Made by a program: the position numbers and the translations under genes
Virus record (IMG/VR): IMGVR_UViG_3300030061_001034
Location: 1 to 30,364 of that record
DNA from: a virus
DNA length: 30,364 bases
Reading direction: 5' to 3' (one strand)
The notes under the pieces: generated by a model
What the model was told of the DNA's origin: nothing
Seen by the model: only the letters and a program-made list of their open reading frames with translations
Databases searched by the model: none
Part shown: piece after piece, positions 1,710-14,897 of the stretch
Layout of the letters: each line of letters begins with the position of its first letter
How positions within the stretch are numbered: the first letter of the stretch is position 1

Positions 1710-2157
1710 ACTCAAAAGAATAGCAGATAACGGAGACGCTTCAATCAGTCTATTTTATATAGATGATGAATTTCAATGCTTTGTAATAGAAGACGAGCAA
1801 AGAACAAAGAAAGTCTATGCTGAGACTCGAATCCCTGAAGGTGTTTATAATATAGACTTAAGAAAAGAGGGTGGTTTTCATAACAGATACTCTAAGAAGT
1901 TTAAAGACCATAAAGGAATGTTATGTTTATATAATAAACCAAACTGGACTTTAGAAAATAAAGGTTTAAAATTTCAATATATTTTAATACATATAGGAAA
2001 TACAGACGAACATACAGCAGGATGTTTATTGTTGAATGATGTTGTAGACGCTAAAAAGTTTACAGGCAGTTATTCAACACAAGCTTATAAAAGAATTTAT
2101 CCAATTATTGCAAATCATATCGAAGAGTGTGGAGCAATTAAAATAATAGTAGAATGA
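1699..2157 (+). CDS. DUF5675-family protein, lysis-module associated
   Basis: The 152-aa product carries the family signature HIGNTDEHTAGCLLL (around residues 98-112) preceded by RIPEGVYNIDL and a conserved WTLENKG segment, matching my memory of DUF5675 proteins, which are frequent beside holins in Bacteroidota phages and prophages. The His/Cys-containing motif recalls L,D-transpeptidase-like folds, so peptidoglycan processing is a reasonable guess, not an established activity. Translation must start at GTG 1699, which overlaps the previous gene by 11 bases, because no usable ATG precedes the conserved core. The stop overlaps the next ATG (ATGA), consistent with coupling to the holin-like gene. 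Confidence 0.75.
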   Translation: MEIKLKRIADNGDASISLFYIDDEFQCFVIEDEQRTKKVYAETRIPEGVYNIDLRKEGGFHNRYSKKFKDHKGMLCLYNKPNWTLENKGLKFQYILIHIGNTDEHTAGCLLLNDVVDAKKFTGSYSTQAYKRIYPIIANHIEECGAIKIIVE

Positions 2158-2605: not shown

Positions 2606-3667
2606 GTGAAAAACAAAAAAGAAAGAGGAAGAGGTAGTGCTCGTTATCGTCTTAAAGAAGACGAGGAGGACATACTGTTTAAATACAGACGTATTAAAGA
2701 AGAGGCTGAGAGAGAGGGATTAGATGTTGAGTCAATACATAGCGGATGGATTAAGAACAAACACGCTTCTTTATATTTTAAACAACCTAACCCAAAAGAA
2801 AAAGACTTTTTTAAATTAACTCAAAATTTAATTGAAGACTTAAAAGAATTTTCTCCTAAATATCCTACTTTAGAAAGGGATAAGTTTAAAGACCCTCATT
2901 TATTTTTCTGTTCACCGTCTGACTTGCACATAGGGAAGCTCTGTAAGTCGTTTAATGCTGACCAAGACTATAATTCACAGATTGCAGTAATAAGAACGTT
3001 AGAGGGTGTAAAGTCTTTAATTAAAAAGGCTCAAGGCTTTAATATTGATAAAGTAGTCTTATTATTAGCAGGAGATTTACTTCACGTTGATAGCTTTAAA
3101 AATACTACAACGAACGACACCGCTCAAGATGTTTCAGGATTGTTTTCAGACAATTTTATGATTGCTAAAAGATTGATGGTTGAAGTAATTGAAACGCTTT
3201 TACAGGTCGCAGACGTTCATTGTATGTTTACGCCTGGAAACCACGATATGGTTAGCGGTTGGATGTTAGCTCAAATACTACAAACACACTTTAGACACAA
3301 CAAAAACACTTCTTTTGACGTTAGTTTAAGGATGCGAAAGTATTACAAATACGGTACTAATGAAAACGCTTCTTTAATTGGTAGCTGTCACGGTGACAAG
3401 ATTAAATTAGATACTTTGCCTTTAATAATGGCAGACGAGTGCAACGAGTGGAGCAGTTCTAAATTTCGTTATATGTTCACACAACATATACATCATAAAG
3501 TACAAAAGCAATTCCCAGGCCTGTGGGTCGAGTCTCTTATGTCACCTTCCGAATCTGACAACTGGCATCATAAAAGCGGCTATCAAAGCTCTAATAATAA
3601 AGGAATTGAGGGCTTTCTTATATCTAAAAATTACGGTCAAGTAGCACGTCTGACACATTTATTTTAA
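2606..3667 (+). CDS. calcineurin-like metallophosphoesterase
   Basis: The 353-aa product shows the metal-binding motifs of the family in order: SDLHIG (about residue 105), GDLLHVD (about 156), GNHD (about 211), CHGD (about 261) and HIHH (about 295). These supply the Asp/His/Asn ligands of a dinuclear metal site, so phosphodiesterase or phosphatase activity is expected; the substrate cannot be inferred. A charged N-terminal region of about 95 residues precedes the catalytic domain. Translation starts at GTG 2606, five bases after the holin-like gene. It is the last gene before the early promoter at about 3719. Confidence 0.85.
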   Translation: MKNKKERGRGSARYRLKEDEEDILFKYRRIKEEAEREGLDVESIHSGWIKNKHASLYFKQPNPKEKDFFKLTQNLIEDLKEFSPKYPTLERDKFKDPHLFFCSPSDLHIGKLCKSFNADQDYNSQIAVIRTLEGVKSLIKKAQGFNIDKVVLLLAGDLLHVDSFKNTTTNDTAQDVSGLFSDNFMIAKRLMVEVIETLLQVADVHCMFTPGNHDMVSGWMLAQILQTHFRHNKNTSFDVSLRMRKYYKYGTNENASLIGSCHGDKIKLDTLPLIMADECNEWSSSKFRYMFTQHIHHKVQKQFPGLWVESLMSPSESDNWHHKSGYQSSNNKGIEGFLISKNYGQVARLTHLF

Positions 3668-5072: not shown

Positions 5073-5406
5073 TTTAAACGAAGAGGACACGTTTAAACAT
5101 AATCATTATCACATTATAACAAGAAGTGGTATTGACAAAATTCAAGCAGATTCAGGCATTATAATTGAATACACTCTTAAACACTACAACCCCGATACTA
5201 AAACCTGTGTTATTAAAGCAATAGGACAACTAAAAGACGTTGTTATTGAAACATTCGGAGAGGCAGCTCCAGACAATAACAGAAACGCTTATCCTGTAGC
5301 AATAGCAGAAAAGAGAGCAATGTCGAGAATAGTCTTAAAATTATCAGGACTCTATAGTTTAGGAGTCTTTGGAGAAGACGAGTCTGACGACTTTAAAAAG
5401 AAATAA
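5029..5406 (+). CDS. candidate single-strand annealing protein / recombination protein
   Basis: The 125-aa product contains ITRSGIDKIQADSGIIIEY, a beta-rich middle (CVIKAIGQLKDVVIETFGEA) and a C-terminal YPVAIAEKRAMSRIVLKLSG helix. The AEKRA-type helix after a beta sheet recalls the compact core of Rad52/Erf-like annealing proteins, and the next large gene is a YqaJ-type exonuclease, its usual partner in Red-like recombination. I do not recognise a named family, so the function is inferred from context and faint motif similarity. A helicase or replication accessory is an alternative. It overlaps the previous gene by 44 bases. Confidence 0.55.
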   Translation: MTRKEQLNRLFIEFNLNEEDTFKHNHYHIITRSGIDKIQADSGIIIEYTLKHYNPDTKTCVIKAIGQLKDVVIETFGEAAPDNNRNAYPVAIAEKRAMSRIVLKLSGLYSLGVFGEDESDDFKKK

Positions 5407-5407
5407 T

Positions 5408-5566
5408 ATGAAAGACAATAAAGCAAACACAGAAGAAAACAACAATTTTTTAGAAGAATTATTTAATAAAATAGATTATGAAAGATTTCAAAATAAGATG
5501 TTCGGCAATAGGTCAGATAATGACGAACCCACAAAGAAAGACCGACACAATATCAAAAACGACTAA
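5408..5566 (+). CDS. small hypothetical protein overlapping the exonuclease start (52 aa)
   Basis: ATG 5408 follows the previous stop by one base and gives an acidic, Asn-rich product (MKDNKANTEENNNFLEELFN). The last 89 bases are read in a different frame from the exonuclease gene starting at 5478, which is unusually long overlap for this genome. The exonuclease N-terminus is clearly conserved in its own frame, so the C-terminal 30 residues here may be passive overprinting. An in-frame ATG at 5369 is less likely because it lies inside the upstream gene. Confidence 0.4.
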   Translation: MKDNKANTEENNNFLEELFNKIDYERFQNKMFGNRSDNDEPTKKDRHNIKND

Positions 5567-7195: not shown

Positions 7196-7612
7196 ATGAC
7201 AGACTTACCTTGGTTTAAATTTAACCCTAATCAATGGCTCACAGGAACAATAAGCTTTCTTAGTTTAGAACAACAAGGAGCGTTTATGAAAGTAGTATGT
7301 TACTACTGGAGCAAAGAGTGTAAAGTTCCTTTAGAACAATATAAAAGAATAATTCCAGACGATTATAAAAACCTTTTAGACGTTGGAATAGTAAAACAAA
7401 AAGGTAAAAAAATTGTTATAGATTGGTTAGATAATCAATTTAAAGAGCGAAAAGAATCTCACTCTAAAAGAGTAGAGTCAGGAAGAAAAGGTGGTAAGCA
7501 TAGCTTAAGCAATGCTCAAGCATTAAGAAAAGAAAAGAACAGAAAAGATAATTACGAAAACGACAACGTCTTAAAAGTATCTGAAGAGGTTAAAAAACTT
7601 CTCAATAAATGA
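7196..7612 (+). CDS. DUF1376-like replication initiator / replisome organiser
   Basis: The 138-aa product starts MTDLPWFKFNPNQWLTGTIS and continues with LEQQGAFMKVVCYYW, the winged-helix-like pattern of DUF1376/phage replication initiator proteins. The N-terminal DNA-binding domain (about residues 1-85) is followed by a basic linker (KRVESGRKGGKHSLSNAQAL) whose DNA carries 11-bp repeats (7497-7533), like the origin inside the lambda O gene. The C-terminus is a short charged helix. It sits directly before the DnaB-like ATPase (ATGA overlap), so it probably recognises the origin and loads the helicase. It has the leader ACTAAAACAAACAACAATG. Confidence 0.75.
   Translation: MTDLPWFKFNPNQWLTGTISFLSLEQQGAFMKVVCYYWSKECKVPLEQYKRIIPDDYKNLLDVGIVKQKGKKIVIDWLDNQFKERKESHSKRVESGRKGGKHSLSNAQALRKEKNRKDNYENDNVLKVSEEVKKLLNK
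7497..7533 (+). repeat. 11-bp iterons inside the initiator gene (origin candidate)
   Basis: Units begin at 7497 (AGCATAGCT), 7508 (AGCAATGCT) and 7519 (AGCATTAAG), spaced 11 bp, and are followed by a purine-rich strand. Bases 7503-7533 match 14539-14569 at 28 of 31 positions. Initiator genes of phages often contain the origin they act on, so this is a candidate initiator-binding site; that is inference. Confidence 0.6.
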
Positions 7613-8478
7613 TAGTAGAAGACGACAACGCACTAAAATATTTATACGACTATAAAGACGGTAAGATTAAGCAAGGTCTTAAGATTGATTGTAAACTGGA
7701 TGAACACTTAGTTTTAAAACGTGGAGAGTTTAACCTTTGCTTAGGGCTTGATAATGTTGGGAAGACGTTCTGGTTATTATGGTATTTTACAACACTTGCT
7801 AAAAAACATAAATTAAAGTTTATTATTTGGTCAGGTGAAAATAGGTCTTCACAATTAAAAAGAGACATCATTGAAATGTGGTCAGGCACTAAATTAAAAG
7901 ACTTAACGAAGTTTGAAATATTAAAATACAATAAAGAAATAAGTAAGCATTTTAAGTTTATTAATAATAGAAAACTTTACAGTCCTATTGATTTGTTTAA
8001 CATCTTTGCAAACTCTGACGCTGATGTGTGTGCAGTCGACCCATATACAGGATTAAATCACGACAGACGAGTTAATCAGTTTGATAGGAATTACAATTTC
8101 TGTAATAGTGCAAGAGAGTTCTGCAATAAGACAGGGAAGACTTTATTTGTTAGCATACACCCTATGACAGAAGCAGCGAGAAGAGTCTACCCTCCAGACC
8201 ACTTACTTAACGGACACATACAAAATCCTCGTAAAGCTGACTGCGAGGGAGGCCAGACGTTTCCCAATCGCGTAGATAGTCTATTCGTACTCCACCGTTA
8301 TATATCTCATAAAGAACTTTGGCCTTATACAGAAGTTCACGTTATGAAAATTAAAGACCGAGAATCAGGAGGAAGCTGTACAATGTTAGGAGAGCCTTTA
8401 AGATTTGATTTCAACAACGGTTTAGGCTTTACAATAGGAGGTATAAACCCACTAAAAAACACAGAGAATTATGGATGA
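7609..8478 (+). CDS. DnaB/RecA-fold replicative helicase-like ATPase
   Basis: The 289-aa product carries a Walker A-type loop GLDNVGKT (about residues 46-53), with Asn-Val before the GKT, and a Walker B strand DVCAVDPY (about 139-146), followed by SIHPMTE (sensor-like His) and an RVDSLFVLHR strand. This fits the C-terminal ATPase domain of DnaB-type helicases or RecA-fold phage ATPases. It lacks the DnaB N-terminal domain, being about 289 residues against 400-450 for full DnaB. The ATGA overlap with the initiator gene implies a functional pair in replication. Confidence 0.75.
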   Translation: MIVEDDNALKYLYDYKDGKIKQGLKIDCKLDEHLVLKRGEFNLCLGLDNVGKTFWLLWYFTTLAKKHKLKFIIWSGENRSSQLKRDIIEMWSGTKLKDLTKFEILKYNKEISKHFKFINNRKLYSPIDLFNIFANSDADVCAVDPYTGLNHDRRVNQFDRNYNFCNSAREFCNKTGKTLFVSIHPMTEAARRVYPPDHLLNGHIQNPRKADCEGGQTFPNRVDSLFVLHRYISHKELWPYTEVHVMKIKDRESGGSCTMLGEPLRFDFNNGLGFTIGGINPLKNTENYG

Positions 8479-8863: not shown

Positions 8864-9014
8864 CGAATACAGACAAGTTAAAGACGCTGTTTACACTCAT
8901 ATTTACGAGGATGAGTTAAAGACAAATAAAATACTTAGTTATATATTAAAAAAGTATTGTGAGAAATACCCAAACGACAAAGACTTAGGACAACAAATAA
9001 GAAAACTAATATGA
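8844..9014 (+). CDS. hypothetical protein (56 aa)
   Basis: The product starts MKKRTLNEYRQVKDAVYTHI, is basic and helical, and ends in a Lys/Asp-rich segment (KYPNDKDLGQQIRKLI). It overlaps the microprotein gene upstream by 20 bases and its TGA overlaps the ATG of the Mom-like gene. The LNEYRQVKD opening recurs in small phage proteins I recall, but no function is known to me. Confidence 0.55.
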   Translation: MKKRTLNEYRQVKDAVYTHIYEDELKTNKILSYILKKYCEKYPNDKDLGQQIRKLI

Positions 9015-9664
9015 GCATTAAAGATAAATACTCTGTAAAATCAATAGATTCTTATTTATGTAAAGATTGGTTATTAAATAAACACTATGCTAAAAGAATA
9101 CCAAGTATTAGCTATTCCTTTGGGTTGTTTGATAAAAATTTAATTGGGATTTGTACTTTTGGAAGTCCACCTTCAAGGTCTTTGTGTGTTGGTGTATGTG
9201 GCGAAAAAAACGCACATAAAGTTTATGAATTAAACAGATTGTGTGTTAATGATAATTTAAAAAAAAATGTGTTAAGTTTTTTTGTTAGTAGTTGTTTAAA
9301 TTTATTAAAAAAAGATTTAATTATCGTAAGCTATGCTGACACATCCGTATGTCATAATGGTTATATCTATCAAGCAACAAATTGGATTTATACTGGTTTA
9401 TCAGCAAAAAGAACTGAACGATATGATATAAACAACCCTAATAAACACAGTAAATCTGTTACTGAAAAAAAAGGTGTAGATTATAAAAATTTAGCTATAA
9501 GAGAAAGACCTCAAAAACATAGATACATTTATTTTACTGGAAGTAAAAAACAAAAAAGAAAATTAAAAAAACAATTAAATTATAAAATACAAGCATATCC
9601 AAAAGGAGAAAACAAGAGATATGACGCAAGTTATAAACCAATAATACAAACACAACTATTTTAA
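9011..9664 (+). CDS. Mom-like DNA-modification acyltransferase (GNAT fold)
   Basis: The 217-aa product contains the series LNKHYAKRIPSISYSFGLFD, IGICTFGSPPS, VYELNRLCV, IIVSYADTSVCHNGYIYQAT and NWIYTGLSA, which I recognise from the phage Mom/adenine-modification family. In phage Mu, Mom modifies adenines to N6-carbamoylmethyl-type bases and shields DNA from restriction; the family belongs to the GNAT superfamily. The C-terminal 60 residues are very basic (SKKQKRKLKKQLNYK), plausible for DNA contact. No Com-like regulator is visible nearby. ATGA overlap with the upstream gene; a nuclease gene follows. Substrate chemistry is inferred from the family. Confidence 0.8.
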   Translation: MSIKDKYSVKSIDSYLCKDWLLNKHYAKRIPSISYSFGLFDKNLIGICTFGSPPSRSLCVGVCGEKNAHKVYELNRLCVNDNLKKNVLSFFVSSCLNLLKKDLIIVSYADTSVCHNGYIYQATNWIYTGLSAKRTERYDINNPNKHSKSVTEKKGVDYKNLAIRERPQKHRYIYFTGSKKQKRKLKKQLNYKIQAYPKGENKRYDASYKPIIQTQLF

Positions 9665-9666
9665 AT

Positions 9667-10026
9667 ATGAATGCTAATAAAAAAGGAAAAAGATTCGAGC
9701 TAAAAATAGCAAACGAATTAGCAAAAGAATTTAACTGTAAAATTAAAAGGACTCCGCTATCTGGCGGTATGGATTTTAAAGGAGACATTTTGTGCATTGA
9801 CGATAACTCTATTATGTCAGAGTTTTCGTGGGAGTGTAAGAATCAAGAGAAGCTAAATATATGGAAGGCTCTCGCTCAATCTCGTAATGACGCACCAAGA
9901 GGGACTATTCCTTTAGTTTGCTTTACGAAAAATTTTGAGTCTGAATATGTTGCTATTGAGTTCAACGACTTTGTTAATATTGTTAAAGAATTAGAAGAGT
10001 TAAGAAATGAAAGAAACACTAAATAA
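9667..10026 (+). CDS. Holliday-junction-resolvase-like PD-(D/E)XK nuclease
   Basis: The 119-aa product shows KGKRFELKIANELA (Glu about 11), then RTPLSGGMDFKGDI (Asp 40) and SWECKNQEKLNIW (E56-C-K58), the catalytic E...D...E-x-K pattern of small archaeal/phage resolvases and VRR-like nucleases. It probably resolves branched DNA during replication, recombination or before packaging. It starts 2 bases after the Mom-like gene, behind TTTTAAAT, and overlaps the next gene by 20 bases. Confidence 0.75.
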   Translation: MNANKKGKRFELKIANELAKEFNCKIKRTPLSGGMDFKGDILCIDDNSIMSEFSWECKNQEKLNIWKALAQSRNDAPRGTIPLVCFTKNFESEYVAIEFNDFVNIVKELEELRNERNTK

Positions 10027-11511: not shown

Positions 11512-11652
11512 ATGATGAAACGAAGACTTACATATAACGGAAAACAAGTCTATATTAAAAAACTAAAAAGCAAATATGCTATAGTATCCCACCACAAAGA
11601 GGGAAACATAAAACAGTTTAAAGTTAATATAAAAGATTTGGCAGACATATGA
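11512..11652 (+). CDS. small basic hypothetical protein (46 aa)
   Basis: Tandem ATGs at 11512 and 11515 offer the start; the product (MMKRRLTYNGKQVYIKKLKS onward) is basic and beta-like. The stop overlaps the ATG of the next gene (ATGA), supporting translational coupling and a real gene. Function unknown. Confidence 0.5.
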   Translation: MMKRRLTYNGKQVYIKKLKSKYAIVSHHKEGNIKQFKVNIKDLADI

Positions 11653-11915
11653 AGCTAACAGAAAAGGAAATAAGAGAGCAAAAGAAAGAACACGGAGCAG
11701 AAGTAGTTAATTACTTTGTGCGCTTTATGGAAGCGAGAGAAAATTGGAAAGCATTACCTGAATATTTTATTAAACAAGTTATAGAGAATAGTGACGATAT
11801 TAGAACTAATAAAAATACTGGAGAAAGAATTACTCGAAAAGTCAAACGGAAAGTTTTGCACCAGTTGGCAAATAGAAAGACTAAAGATAGCACACGAAAG
11901 AAAGACGATGCCTAA
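11649..11915 (+). CDS. basic hypothetical protein (88 aa)
   Basis: A charged, mainly helical protein (starts MKLTEKEIREQKKEHGAEVV) with a basic C-terminal half (RITRKVKRKVLHQLANRKTK). It lies between a coupled small gene and the GNAT gene, near the end of the early region. The composition fits nucleic-acid binding but there is no recognisable domain. Confidence 0.55.
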   Translation: MKLTEKEIREQKKEHGAEVVNYFVRFMEARENWKALPEYFIKQVIENSDDIRTNKNTGERITRKVKRKVLHQLANRKTKDSTRKKDDA

Positions 11916-11941: not shown

Positions 11942-12484
11942 ATGATAAATAATATATTAGACTATCGTGTTATAAATGGAACTCCAACGATATTAAGAGA
12001 GGGAAATATTAAAGACTTTCTTTACGTTGACTCATTAAGAAAAAAAGAGGGAAAAGCACTTGGTTTTATACCTAAGTCTGTTTATGAAAGTATTTTACTT
12101 AAAAAAAAGGTAGCTAATAGAAATAGGTTTTTATATAGTCAAATTATACTTACAGTAGATAACGGTGAAAATACTGGTTTTTGTTATTTCACATACGCTG
12201 GACAAGATTTACACATTCAACAAATAGCTATTCAAAATGATGCAAGAAGATTACATAGGGCTTTAATGTTGTTAGATTATGTTGAAAAAATAGCAAAACA
12301 AAAAGGTAAAACAGCTATAACTTGTAGGGTAGCAATTGACTTAGAATCTAATAAATTTTGGTCTGCCTGTGGTTATAATATACAAGCCACAACAATAAGT
12401 ACTTTTTTAAATAGAAAAGAAAGCAAAAGTAAAAGACCACTACATTATTATATAAAATATATAAATTCATTATTTAATGTCTAA
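11942..12484 (+). CDS. GNAT-family N-acetyltransferase-like protein
   Basis: The 180-aa product has a GNAT-like topology: LREGNIKDFLYVDSLRKKEG at the start, GFIPKSVYESILL, a beta strand with GFCYFTYAG, then HIQQIAIQNDARRLHRALML, in which the QxxAIQxxARRxHxA region corresponds to the acetyl-CoA-binding loop and helix, and KFWSACGY near the C-terminus, the common GNAT signature N-x-F/W-W-x-x-x-G-F/Y. It is next to the terminase genes and about 2 kb after the Mom-like gene. The substrate is unknown; DNA-base or protein acylation are both possible. Confidence 0.7.
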   Translation: MINNILDYRVINGTPTILREGNIKDFLYVDSLRKKEGKALGFIPKSVYESILLKKKVANRNRFLYSQIILTVDNGENTGFCYFTYAGQDLHIQQIAIQNDARRLHRALMLLDYVEKIAKQKGKTAITCRVAIDLESNKFWSACGYNIQATTISTFLNRKESKSKRPLHYYIKYINSLFNV

Positions 12485-12947
12485 AAAGCTAACACCTAAA
12501 CAGAGAAAATTTGCTGAAGAGTATGTTAACACAGGCAACGCTTCAGAGGCTTACAGACGGGCTTATGATGTTAGTAAAACAACGTCTAATGATGTTATAA
12601 AAGTAAAGGCAAGTGAACTTCTTAAAAATGGTAACATATCGGTAACAGTCAAGGAGTTACAAATACAACAGGCTAACAAGTACGAAATAACACGCAAGGA
12701 AGTAGCTGAGGGCTATTTTAAGATGATTAAATCGTGGGAGTATCTTATGGACTTAGCCTCAAAAGAAAACCTCACTAAGGAGCAGAAATCAAAGTTCTAT
12801 TTATTAAAGGAAATGGTTAAGGGTTCTGACTATCGAGGTGCTTACGATTCTATTGCAAAGATGTTCGGACTCAACGCACCAGACAAACAAGAAATAGAAC
12901 AGACTGTTCACAATATCAACATCAACATAAAGCGTGGAAGCGACTGA
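12477..12947 (+). CDS. terS: terminase small subunit
   Basis: The 156-aa product starts MSKKLTPKQRKFAEEYVNTG followed by NASEAYRRAY and VKASELLKNGNISVTV, the N-terminal helix-turn-helix pattern of the Terminase_2 family that recognises the packaging site. A middle helical oligomerisation region follows, and the C-terminus (TVHNININIKRGS) overlaps the large subunit start by 14 bases, the usual order for terminase genes. It overlaps the GNAT gene by 8 bases. Confidence 0.9.
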   Translation: MSKKLTPKQRKFAEEYVNTGNASEAYRRAYDVSKTTSNDVIKVKASELLKNGNISVTVKELQIQQANKYEITRKEVAEGYFKMIKSWEYLMDLASKENLTKEQKSKFYLLKEMVKGSDYRGAYDSIAKMFGLNAPDKQEIEQTVHNININIKRGSD

Positions 12948-14112
12948 AATCTTTGAACGCAATTACGATAGCGAATCTAAAATCGTAGTTAATCGAGGAG
13001 GTACTCGTAGCTCTAAGACTTGGTCTTTAAATCAACTGTGTGCTTTATGGTTAATAAGTGGTAATTATGGAGACGGTCAATATTGTTATGAGGGTGTGTG
13101 GACTACAGTACGTAAATACCGTACGAACTTAGACGGAACAGTTGTCAGAGACTTTGAGGATATATTGAAAGCTGAGGGTTGGTATAATCTTGTTAATCAT
13201 AATAAGACTAAGAAACAATATAGAGTTGGTAAACGTCTTGTTGAGTTTATAGGAGCAGATGACGAACAGAAGCTGAGAGGAGCTAAAAGAAATATCTTAT
13301 ATTGTAACGAAGCAAACGAATTAGAATACAAACAGGAGTTCTTCCAGTTGTTAATGAGGACAGAGAATAAAATCTTTATTGACTTCAACCCTGACGATGA
13401 GCAAGTATGGATTAATCAGGAGATTGAAATTAAACGTTCTAATGAAGTCGGAGATGTTGAGGTAATAGTATCTAACTATAAAAACAACTCATTCTTACCT
13501 AAGTCATTAATTAAAGAAATAGAATATCTAAAGCAAACAGATAAAGAGTTCTGGAAGATATACGGTCTTGGAGAGTATGGAAATATTAGTGGGTTAATAT
13601 ATGAGAATGTTAAATACGTTGACAGGATGCCTGACGCAAAACTGGTAGCGTATGGATTAGACTTCGGTTATAGCTTAGACCCTGCGGCTTGTTTAGCTGT
13701 TTACAAAAGAGATAAAGATTTGTATTTAAAAGAGATAATTTACGAGAAAGGTTTAACCAATCAAGACCTTGCTGAACGTCTTAAACCTATTGTCAATCGT
13801 GATGAGGTTATTTGTGATAGTGCTGAACCTAAGTCAATAGAGGAGTTGTATAGATTAGGCATAAACGCAAAGCCTGCTGTCAAAGGTAGAGATTCAATAC
13901 TAAACGGAATAGACATACTTAAACGTTACAATATAAACGTTGTTAATAGTAGTAATTTAAAAAGAGAGTTCAGGACTTATAAATGGGCGACAGACAAAAA
14001 CGGTAACAGTTTACAAAAGCCAATCGGCTTAGACCACTTAATGGATGCTTTGCGATACGTTGCATTGATACATTTAAAAGAACATAATAGAGGTTGGTAT
14101 TCAATTAGATAA
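12934..14112 (+). CDS. terL: terminase large subunit (PBSX/Terminase_3 type)
   Basis: The 392-aa product is an ATP-driven packaging motor and nuclease. The Walker A-type loop is GGTRSSKT (residues 22-29) and the Walker B region NILYCNEANE (about 119-128). The nuclease domain shows acidic residues in GLDFGY (about 243), CDSAEPKSIEEL (about 293) and DHLMDALRY (about 367-375). Start is GTG 12934 inside the small-subunit gene. The length is typical for this family. The small cassette genes that follow are preceded by their own promoter, so the terminase probably ends the early/middle transcription unit. Confidence 0.93.
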   Translation: MEATEIFERNYDSESKIVVNRGGTRSSKTWSLNQLCALWLISGNYGDGQYCYEGVWTTVRKYRTNLDGTVVRDFEDILKAEGWYNLVNHNKTKKQYRVGKRLVEFIGADDEQKLRGAKRNILYCNEANELEYKQEFFQLLMRTENKIFIDFNPDDEQVWINQEIEIKRSNEVGDVEVIVSNYKNNSFLPKSLIKEIEYLKQTDKEFWKIYGLGEYGNISGLIYENVKYVDRMPDAKLVAYGLDFGYSLDPAACLAVYKRDKDLYLKEIIYEKGLTNQDLAERLKPIVNRDEVICDSAEPKSIEELYRLGINAKPAVKGRDSILNGIDILKRYNINVVNSSNLKREFRTYKWATDKNGNSLQKPIGLDHLMDALRYVALIHLKEHNRGWYSIR

Positions 14113-14162
14113 ATTAATTTACAGAGGTAGAATAAAATAATTTAAAAAAAAGTGTAAAATGT

Positions 14163-14193
14163 TTTGCTATTTATAAATATATTTATACCTTTA
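14163..14193 (+). promoter_or_regulatory. Bacteroidota-type promoter, first cassette
   Basis: TTTG (14163-14166), a 19-base spacer, then TACCTTTA (14186-14193) fits TTTG-N19-TAnnTTTG with one mismatch in the last base. An 18-base A/T core at 14170-14187 is identical to one in the second cassette promoter. The leader ends AAAACAAACATTATG at the next gene. Confidence 0.65.
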
Positions 14194-14227
14194 CATTATA
14201 ATTAACTAAAACATTAAAACAAACATT

Positions 14228-14398
14228 ATGAAAAATATTCAAAAATTAAACTGGATTTTAGAAGAAGAAAAAGAATCTTTAAATAACTTATTACAAAGAA
14301 TTCAGGATGGTGATTTAACCAGAAGAGCAATTGAAGATAGGATTAGAGAGCATATTAAGAAAAATGAATTAGCTCAAAAATTTGCTGAAAACTTATAA
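14228..14398 (+). CDS. 56-aa helical hypothetical protein, cassette 1
   Basis: The product starts MKNIQKLNWILEEEKESLNN and looks like two or three amphipathic charged helices (LLQRIQDGDLTRRAIEDRIR, then a Lys-rich end). No known domain. It has its own promoter (14163) and intrinsic terminator (14423), the layout of a moron gene inserted between the terminase and the tail module. That layout suggests independent expression, perhaps during infection or lysogeny, but the function is unknown. Confidence 0.65.
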   Translation: MKNIQKLNWILEEEKESLNNLLQRIQDGDLTRRAIEDRIREHIKKNELAQKFAENL

Positions 14399-14422
14399 TA
14401 CACAACAATAATAAAAAGAAAG

Positions 14423-14450
14423 AGCCACCGTAAAAAGTGGCTTTTTTTTT
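14423..14450 (+). terminator. intrinsic terminator, cassette 1
   Basis: Stem AGCCAC (14423-14428) pairs with GTGGCT (14437-14442) around an A-rich loop, followed by nine T. It ends the first cassette. Confidence 0.85.
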
Positions 14451-14510
14451 GCAAAAAAATATTTTGTCATTAGTGACTAAATTAAACACTTTTAAGCTCT
14501 CAACAGATAG

Positions 14511-14569
14511 AGCAATGCTAAAGCAATACTTAAGCAATGCTTAACCAATGCTCGAGCATTAAGAAGAGA
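14511..14569 (+). repeat. non-coding 11-bp iteron array, origin candidate
   Basis: Tandem units AGCAATGCT, AGCAATACT, AGCAATGCT and ACCAATGCT start at 14511, 14522, 14533 and 14544, exactly 11 bp apart, with a fifth degenerate unit at 14555. Bases 14530-14544 form an inverted repeat and 14547-14560 a perfect 14-bp palindrome (AATGCTCGAGCATT). A purine-rich strand and an A-rich tract (about 14570-14623) follow, suitable as an easily unwound element. Bases 14539-14569 match the initiator gene at 7503-7533 at 28 of 31 positions. The array lacks coding features and lies between two expression cassettes. Replication origin or initiator operator is inferred. Confidence 0.65.
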
Positions 14570-14625
14570 TAAGATAAGATAAGAAAAGAAGAGATAAAAA
14601 AAAATAAAAAAAAACTTAAAAAAGT

Positions 14626-14656
14626 TTTGTAGTTTATAAATATATTTATATATTAG
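14626..14656 (+). promoter_or_regulatory. Bacteroidota-type promoter, second cassette
   Basis: TTTG (14626-14629), a 19-base spacer and TATATTAG (14649-14656) follow the Bacteroidota pattern. Bases 14633-14650 are identical to the first cassette promoter core. The leader ends AAAACAAACACAATG as at 3775. Confidence 0.65.
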
Positions 14657-14682
14657 CATTGTAATTAATTAAAACAAACACA

Positions 14683-14853
14683 ATGAAAAGATTTAGTAAA
14701 AGTAAAACTTATTTAGATAAAGATAATAATAGATATTCGTATGATGGTAAATATAGGGGTTATTGGCATTTTTATAAATTTGAAGAAACATCCTCATCTT
14801 TTAAAACTTATTCTGAAACACAAGTTTTAGATTTACAATTAAAAGAAAAATAA
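14683..14853 (+). CDS. 56-aa aromatic-rich hypothetical protein, cassette 2
   Basis: The product starts MKRFSKSKTYLDKDNNRYSY and is rich in Tyr, Lys, Asp and Trp (YDGKYRGYWHFYKFEE), probably a small beta domain with a charged C-terminus. No recognised family. It has its own promoter (14626) and terminator (14862). Its length equals that of the cassette 1 protein, but the sequences do not look related. Confidence 0.6.
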   Translation: MKRFSKSKTYLDKDNNRYSYDGKYRGYWHFYKFEETSSSFKTYSETQVLDLQLKEK

Positions 14854-14861
14854 AAAGAAAG

Positions 14862-14888
14862 AGCTACTTTAACGAGTAGCTTTTTTTT
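14862..14888 (+). terminator. intrinsic terminator, cassette 2
   Basis: AGCTACT (14862-14868) pairs with AGTAGCT (14875-14881) across a 6-base loop, followed by a T8 tract. It ends the second cassette. Confidence 0.85.
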
Positions 14889-14889
14889 G

Positions 14890-14897
14890 TATCTTTG
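14890..14897 (+). promoter_or_regulatory. perfect -7 element (TATCTTTG) before a leader terminator
   Basis: TATCTTTG matches TAnnTTTG exactly, but no clear TTTG lies 19-21 bases upstream, because that region is the preceding terminator. If active, the transcript would begin near 14904 and meet the terminator at 14924-14960 within about 55 bases, giving a short RNA or an attenuated leader to the structural operon. Confidence 0.4.

Follow-up and report, generated by a model that had tools for sequence, protein, structure and literature searches.

A marine bacterial virus was found to carry the same replication-origin-like DNA module twice, once inside the gene for its presumed replication initiator and once in non-coding DNA just after its terminase genes, and relatives with other initiators carry matching variants, which suggests a genuine two-origin system and gives a likely role to DUF1376, a protein family of unknown function. 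The window, by which we mean the whole 30,364-bp virus record analysed, had been described in a preliminary description from its sequence alone as holding four 11-bp-spaced repeats that resemble part of the initiator gene some 7 kb away, and this observation was confirmed and proved stronger than first seen. The accompanying interpretation, that the repeats are an origin, or a decoy or operator, paired with a copy in the initiator gene, was supported by the comparisons below, although neither binding nor replication was assayed. Its further suggestion that the site was duplicated from the initiator gene is plausible, as four isolated phages have only the in-gene array, but the direction of change is not proven.

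The two copies of the module in the window

Four tandem units at exactly 11-bp spacing lie on the plus strand at 14510-14553, being GAGCAATGCTA (14510-14520), AAGCAATACTT (14521-14531), AAGCAATGCTT (14532-14542) and AACCAATGCTC (14543-14553). The spacing is exact, whereas the sequences are not, with 0-2 mismatches to the consensus AAGCAATGCTT. The lag-11 self-match is 28/33, the best at any lag from 8 to 15 in the whole window, and 300 Markov simulations never exceeded 23 at lag 11 or 25 at any lag from 8 to 15, so that a chance repeat was rejected. The 14-bp perfect palindrome AATGCTCGAGCATT (14547-14560) noted in the preliminary description is real, but is perfect only in some relatives (L014, L024 and L026; L numbers denote related or compared loci throughout) and is a by-product of the near-palindromic unit. 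The array is followed by a AGCATTAAG anchor (14555-14563, plus strand), which is shared by the in-gene and post-terminase copies of most relatives, and by a conserved purine-rich tract with GATAA repeats (14561-14594, plus strand; 85% purine over 14554-14594). The purine and A-rich tracts first described were thus present, over 14561-14623, and a candidate DNA unwinding element at 14595-14654, the second least stable 60-mer of the window, overlaps the promoter of the next small gene.

The small-gene cassettes said to flank the site were also present (14116-14450 and 14592-14890), each with a strong AT-rich promoter, a 56-aa open reading frame (14228-14398 and 14683-14853) and a hairpin terminator, the promoters being 79% and the terminators 83% alike. 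In relatives other genes, including a methylase-like one, occupy this position, marking an insertion hot spot between the terminase and late genes. The landmark directly upstream of the site is the terminase large subunit gene (12934-14112, plus strand; PF04466 and PF17288), preceded by the terminase small subunit gene (12477-12947, plus strand; PF03592, 1.6e-15; phrog_51, 3.4e-20).

The similarity first reported between 14539-14569 and 7503-7533, at 28 of 31 positions, was exactly right, and was found to run further, with 14531-14587 matching 7495-7551 at 47 of 57 positions (null maximum 36; blastn E 1e-11). The in-gene copy consists of two units, AAGCATAGCTT and AAGCAATGCTC (7496-7517), a AGCATTAAG anchor (7519-7527) read as part of codons Q-A-L-R, and a purine tract, AAAAGAAAAGAACAGAAAAGATAA (7528-7551), all on the plus strand. 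A DNA search of the post-terminase array region against known phages gave only weak hits to other parts of the query.

The gene holding the in-gene copy (7196-7612, plus strand) encodes a DUF1376-like presumed replication initiator of 138 aa, which matched phrog_29280 (5e-16) and PHROGs annotated as primosomal protein. Its score to PF07120 (DUF1376) was below the curated Pfam cut-off (20.7 against 30.1 bits), but comparison of profile with profile, against 12 PF07120 members, showed clear remote homology of the N-terminal domain (hhalign probability 96.7%, E 4.5e-10). In an AF2 model the N-terminal domain, winged-helix-like, is ordered (mean pLDDT 90 or more in the blocks covering residues 21-90), and the disordered tail has a low-confidence part, residues 101-123, which is where the module is encoded. 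Foldseek gave no hit under E 0.001, and structural matches to ORC winged helices, the DnaD N-terminal domain and solved initiators were weak (Z 3.8-5.5), so the fold is no proof, and the name initiator is an inference from the PHROG names, the neighbouring helicase gene and the in-gene array. The next gene (7609-8478, plus strand), which overlaps the end of the initiator gene, encodes a presumed replicative helicase/ATPase (phrog_18375, DNA primase/helicase, 8.7e-20). A RusA-like Holliday junction resolvase (9667-10026, plus strand; phrog_244, 7.2e-23), compatible with recombination-dependent concatemer replication, and a Mom-family DNA-modification gene (9011-9664; PF25680, E 4e-36) are also encoded.

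Conservation and cognate variation in related genomes

Absence of the 11-bp spacing from relatives had been set out in advance as grounds for rejecting the idea, and the opposite was observed. Of 80 related terminase loci, about 70 have an 11-bp array within about 1.1 kb downstream of the terminase, in several unit classes (AAGCAATGCTT, AGCAAATGCTG, TATAGCATTAC and TTAAGTATGGC), with the distance varying because small-gene cassettes and methylase-like genes are inserted. Some loci without a hit carry weaker arrays of the AGC-every-11-bp kind (L087, L088 and L094). In a second lineage, whose terminase is only about 30% identical but whose initiators are related, the module sits within 20-50 bp of the terminase stop codon, for example in L020, L115, L118, L127 and L175.

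The search for the same pair in related phages, likewise proposed beforehand as a check, showed that among 51 genomes with an initiator gene and at least 150 bp readable after the terminase, 30 carry the module in both places, 19 (clade B) only after the terminase, and 2 (L135 and L152) only in the gene, these two having less than 1.2 kb of downstream sequence available. In clade B no in-gene copy was detectable, the protein lacks in alignments the segment that would encode the module, and each locus, of up to 21 kb, has a single array of this unit. Clade B is one clade by initiator (97/92), but the root is unresolved, so loss in this clade is the simpler reading and not a proof. The same intergenic region of one clade B phage, L072, holds further 11-bp arrays with other units at 11579-11840 (AACGTTCGTTC followed by CATTAAGAATAAG, and CAAGTGGACTT followed by TCTATTCTATTC), the latter being found in L034 too, and these are possibly origins of other initiators, left over or borrowed.

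To investigate whether array and initiator vary together, we compared in-gene units with post-terminase units in 10 representatives, and those of the same genome matched better than those of other genomes (p 1.5e-4). Examples are AAT centres in the window, AAAC/GTTT in L087, and GG/CC centres in L020 and L127. Over 29 genomes, the similarity of the post-terminase array correlated with initiator identity at fixed terminase identity (partial Mantel r 0.62, p 0.0002) far more than with terminase identity at fixed initiator identity (0.20, p 0.004). Relatedness is not fully removed by these permutation tests and inflates them. As examples, L157 shares 33% of its terminase but 82% of its array with the window, whereas in clade B (L030 and L046) about 90% of the terminase but 61-65% of the array is shared.

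The in-gene copy was found to be constrained at the DNA level. In 62 initiator genes (1510 pairs at 45-85% protein identity), synonymous difference was 0.00 at most codons from L113 to K128 of the alignment (mean about 0.04 over these 16 codons), but 0.59-0.72 in the five codons before and 0.39-0.72 in the seven after. No synonymous change was seen among the 62 at the A-L-R codons of the anchor, with GCA for Ala118 and TTA for Leu119 each used in 62 of 62, and the constrained block runs through the KDK codons of the purine tract. As the block ends about ten codons before the stop, the ribosome-binding site of the next gene is unlikely to be the cause. A protein-level repeat was rejected, since 11 is not a multiple of 3 and the block lacks synonymous change.

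Beside the post-terminase array, the weak duplex was at a median percentile of 99.6 in 47 loci, which is supporting evidence only, as intergenic DNA is AT-rich anyway. Beside the in-gene copy the median was 92.5, and in the window this copy lacks an outstanding weak-duplex neighbour, so that whether both arrays have an AT-rich unwinding element is left undecided by these values. GC skew, also named at the outset as a check, showed no switch at either site, but with nearly all genes on one strand this says little.

Tandem arrays in other DUF1376 genes

A strict pattern of three near-perfect units spaced 11 bp apart found nothing in viral contigs. A looser one, an exact pattern of three AGCAATGCT units at 11-bp spacing, hit eight viral contigs and two sites in bacterial genomes. 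Of the eight viral arrays from this blind search, five are in open reading frames, and all five records have a PF07120 match in that gene. The other three (L101, L107 and L108) are non-coding and lie in contigs where no DUF1376 gene was found, so the unit is not exclusive to this family. In L101, a 32.7-kb contig, the array (2917-2947, minus strand) is followed by GATTAGATTAG purine repeats and lies beside late/lysis-type genes. In L107, an unrelated contig, the array (near 1868-1898, minus strand) is upstream of a HTH regulator gene and is probably an operator, a reminder that the unit is not specific to origins. A search with the DUF1376 protein of L106 gave only three loci.

Among 38 PF07120 open reading frames in bacterial genomes, 20 beat codon shuffles, 12 of them at 11 bp and 6 at 12 bp, with many different unit sequences. 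In 47 DUF1376 genes the mean z was 2.56 at lag 11 and 1.63 at lag 12, whereas 90 control open reading frames showed about 0.1 (0.10 at lag 11). Four isolated Bacteroidota phages (Leeuwenhoekiella Arctus_1, Flavobacterium morran9-1, and Cellulophaga Nekkels_1 and phi19:1) have repeat arrays and a purine tract inside the DUF1376 gene. By eye these read in 11-bp units, but lag 11 beat codon shuffles clearly only in phi19:1 and Arctus_1. In phi19:1 the gene is gp031, at about 11,050 in KC821607. A self-comparison over 38-50 kb of each phage found no second copy outside that gene in any of the four.

Interpretation and comparison with known systems

The reading that we favour, with reasonable though not full confidence, is that the DUF1376-type protein encoded at 7196-7612 is the replication initiator and binds tandem 11-bp units (AGC-N3/4-GCT type), one helical turn apart, both inside its own gene and in the intergenic DNA after the terminase. 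In this view the post-terminase module would be a complete theta-type origin, at which the initiator array melts the adjacent AT-rich DNA and the helicase encoded next to the initiator is loaded, and the in-gene module would be a second initiator site, either a second or older origin or a place where bound initiator stalls forks. The sequences, their conservation, the constraint on the in-gene copy and the matching of array to initiator rest on direct analysis, whereas binding, melting, helicase loading and the division of roles between the sites are inferred. The features of an iteron-type origin, namely tandem repeats in helical phase with an adjacent purine/AT-rich stretch of low stability in a genome with a matching initiator gene, were all observed, with the initiator role itself inferred and autonomous replication not measured. 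As clade B has only one copy, two sites are not obligatory, and our analysis did not establish which site fires first.

A site that only regulates transcription, or only stalls forks, is not excluded. An operator pair, through which the DUF1376 protein or another regulator would repress its own operon from inside the gene and switch the late genes from the promoter beside the post-terminase array, is suggested by a promoter-like sequence about 70 bp downstream of the array in the window, driving a small gene before the late genes, and by the similar units close to the regulator gene in L107. We consider this unlikely, as a promoter-like sequence follows the array in only 14 of 47 relatives while array, anchor, purine tract and weak duplex persist, so a promoter operator is not the shared role, and as the in-gene copy lies about 300 bp inside the gene and about 60 bp before the next one, in a block whose constraint includes the purine tract. 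A pac or cos packaging site read by the terminase, with the likeness to the initiator gene secondary, appears very unlikely despite the position after the terminase large subunit in nearly all lineages examined, because array sequence follows the initiator more than the terminase, and because the same module is inside the initiator gene and, in the four isolated phages, only there. A switch of the type proposed for Bacillus phage SPP1, where one site starts theta replication and initiator bound at the other blocks the fork and triggers the change to concatemer replication, the post-terminase copy being perhaps only the barrier, is a special case of the favoured reading, overlaps with it, and is held only tentatively. 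The layout and the presence of the resolvase and nucleases agree with it, but the post-terminase copy cannot be only a barrier in clade B, where it is the sole array, and the unwinding-element-like stretch is beside that copy.

The layout is like that of SPP1 oriL/oriR with the initiator gp38 (G38P), in which two sites of direct repeats plus an AT-rich region are found, one inside the initiator gene and one intergenic in a late-region segment with accessory genes and bracketed by transcription signals, with a helicase gene in the same operon and a resolvase encoded, and in which gp38 bound at oriR is thought to stall forks and start concatemer replication (PMC6316719, PMC3485210). An array inside the initiator gene and a second array of the same repeats in intergenic DNA of the late region were both found in the window, while fork stalling was not examined. 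Here the protein family is DUF1376-like, the units are 11 bp, the second site is next to the terminase and one clade lacks the in-gene copy. Homology to gp38 was not examined, and 1 of 32 relatives touched PF09681 (Phage_rep_org_N) at E 0.07. In phage lambda, iterons for the O protein lie inside its own gene, followed by an AT-rich, strand-asymmetric purine stretch, but lambda has a single in-gene origin with longer iterons and a different protein family, and has no second, intergenic copy; related work on Stx phages was found in the literature. In RepA_N plasmids such as pSK41, the origin boxes lie centrally in the rep gene and encode a dispensable linker beside a winged-helix N-terminal domain (PMC5703833). 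These are plasmid replicons for which the review, as far as consulted, describes no second site, and the matches of the AF2 model to solved initiators (4pql, 4pta and 4pt7, Z about 4) are too weak to claim homology. No published function for DUF1376, and no paper linking it to origins, was found among the open-access papers searched, so that what is new here is an SPP1-like layout in another, apparently different, initiator family, together with a relocation series not found in that literature.

A broader reading, which we judge somewhat more likely than not, is that DUF1376-family genes in phages and prophages are in general replication initiators whose own coding sequence contains their origin as 11-bp (sometimes 12-bp) iterons. 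The marine phages would then show a series of origin relocation, from in-gene only (isolated Cellulophaga, Flavobacterium and Leeuwenhoekiella phages), to in-gene plus post-terminase (window and relatives), to post-terminase only with the encoding segment absent from the protein (clade B), with the recognition sequence following the initiator throughout. This gives a testable function to the family, for which the isolated phages with in-gene arrays are amenable at the bench, explains the odd repeats in its members (SNAQALRK, NAEAMLEQC) as DNA sites read through all three frames, and shows how an origin could leave its gene by being copied elsewhere and then erased from the protein. The natural unit variants with their cognate initiators also form a ready set for working out initiator specificity. 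Another location for the site was seen in a distant relative, L022 (initiator 39% identical), which has a module ending in AGCATTAAGAAAAGAGAAGAATAAG at 5405-5490, in intergenic DNA between lysis-type and early genes and not after a terminase, and none in its initiator gene.
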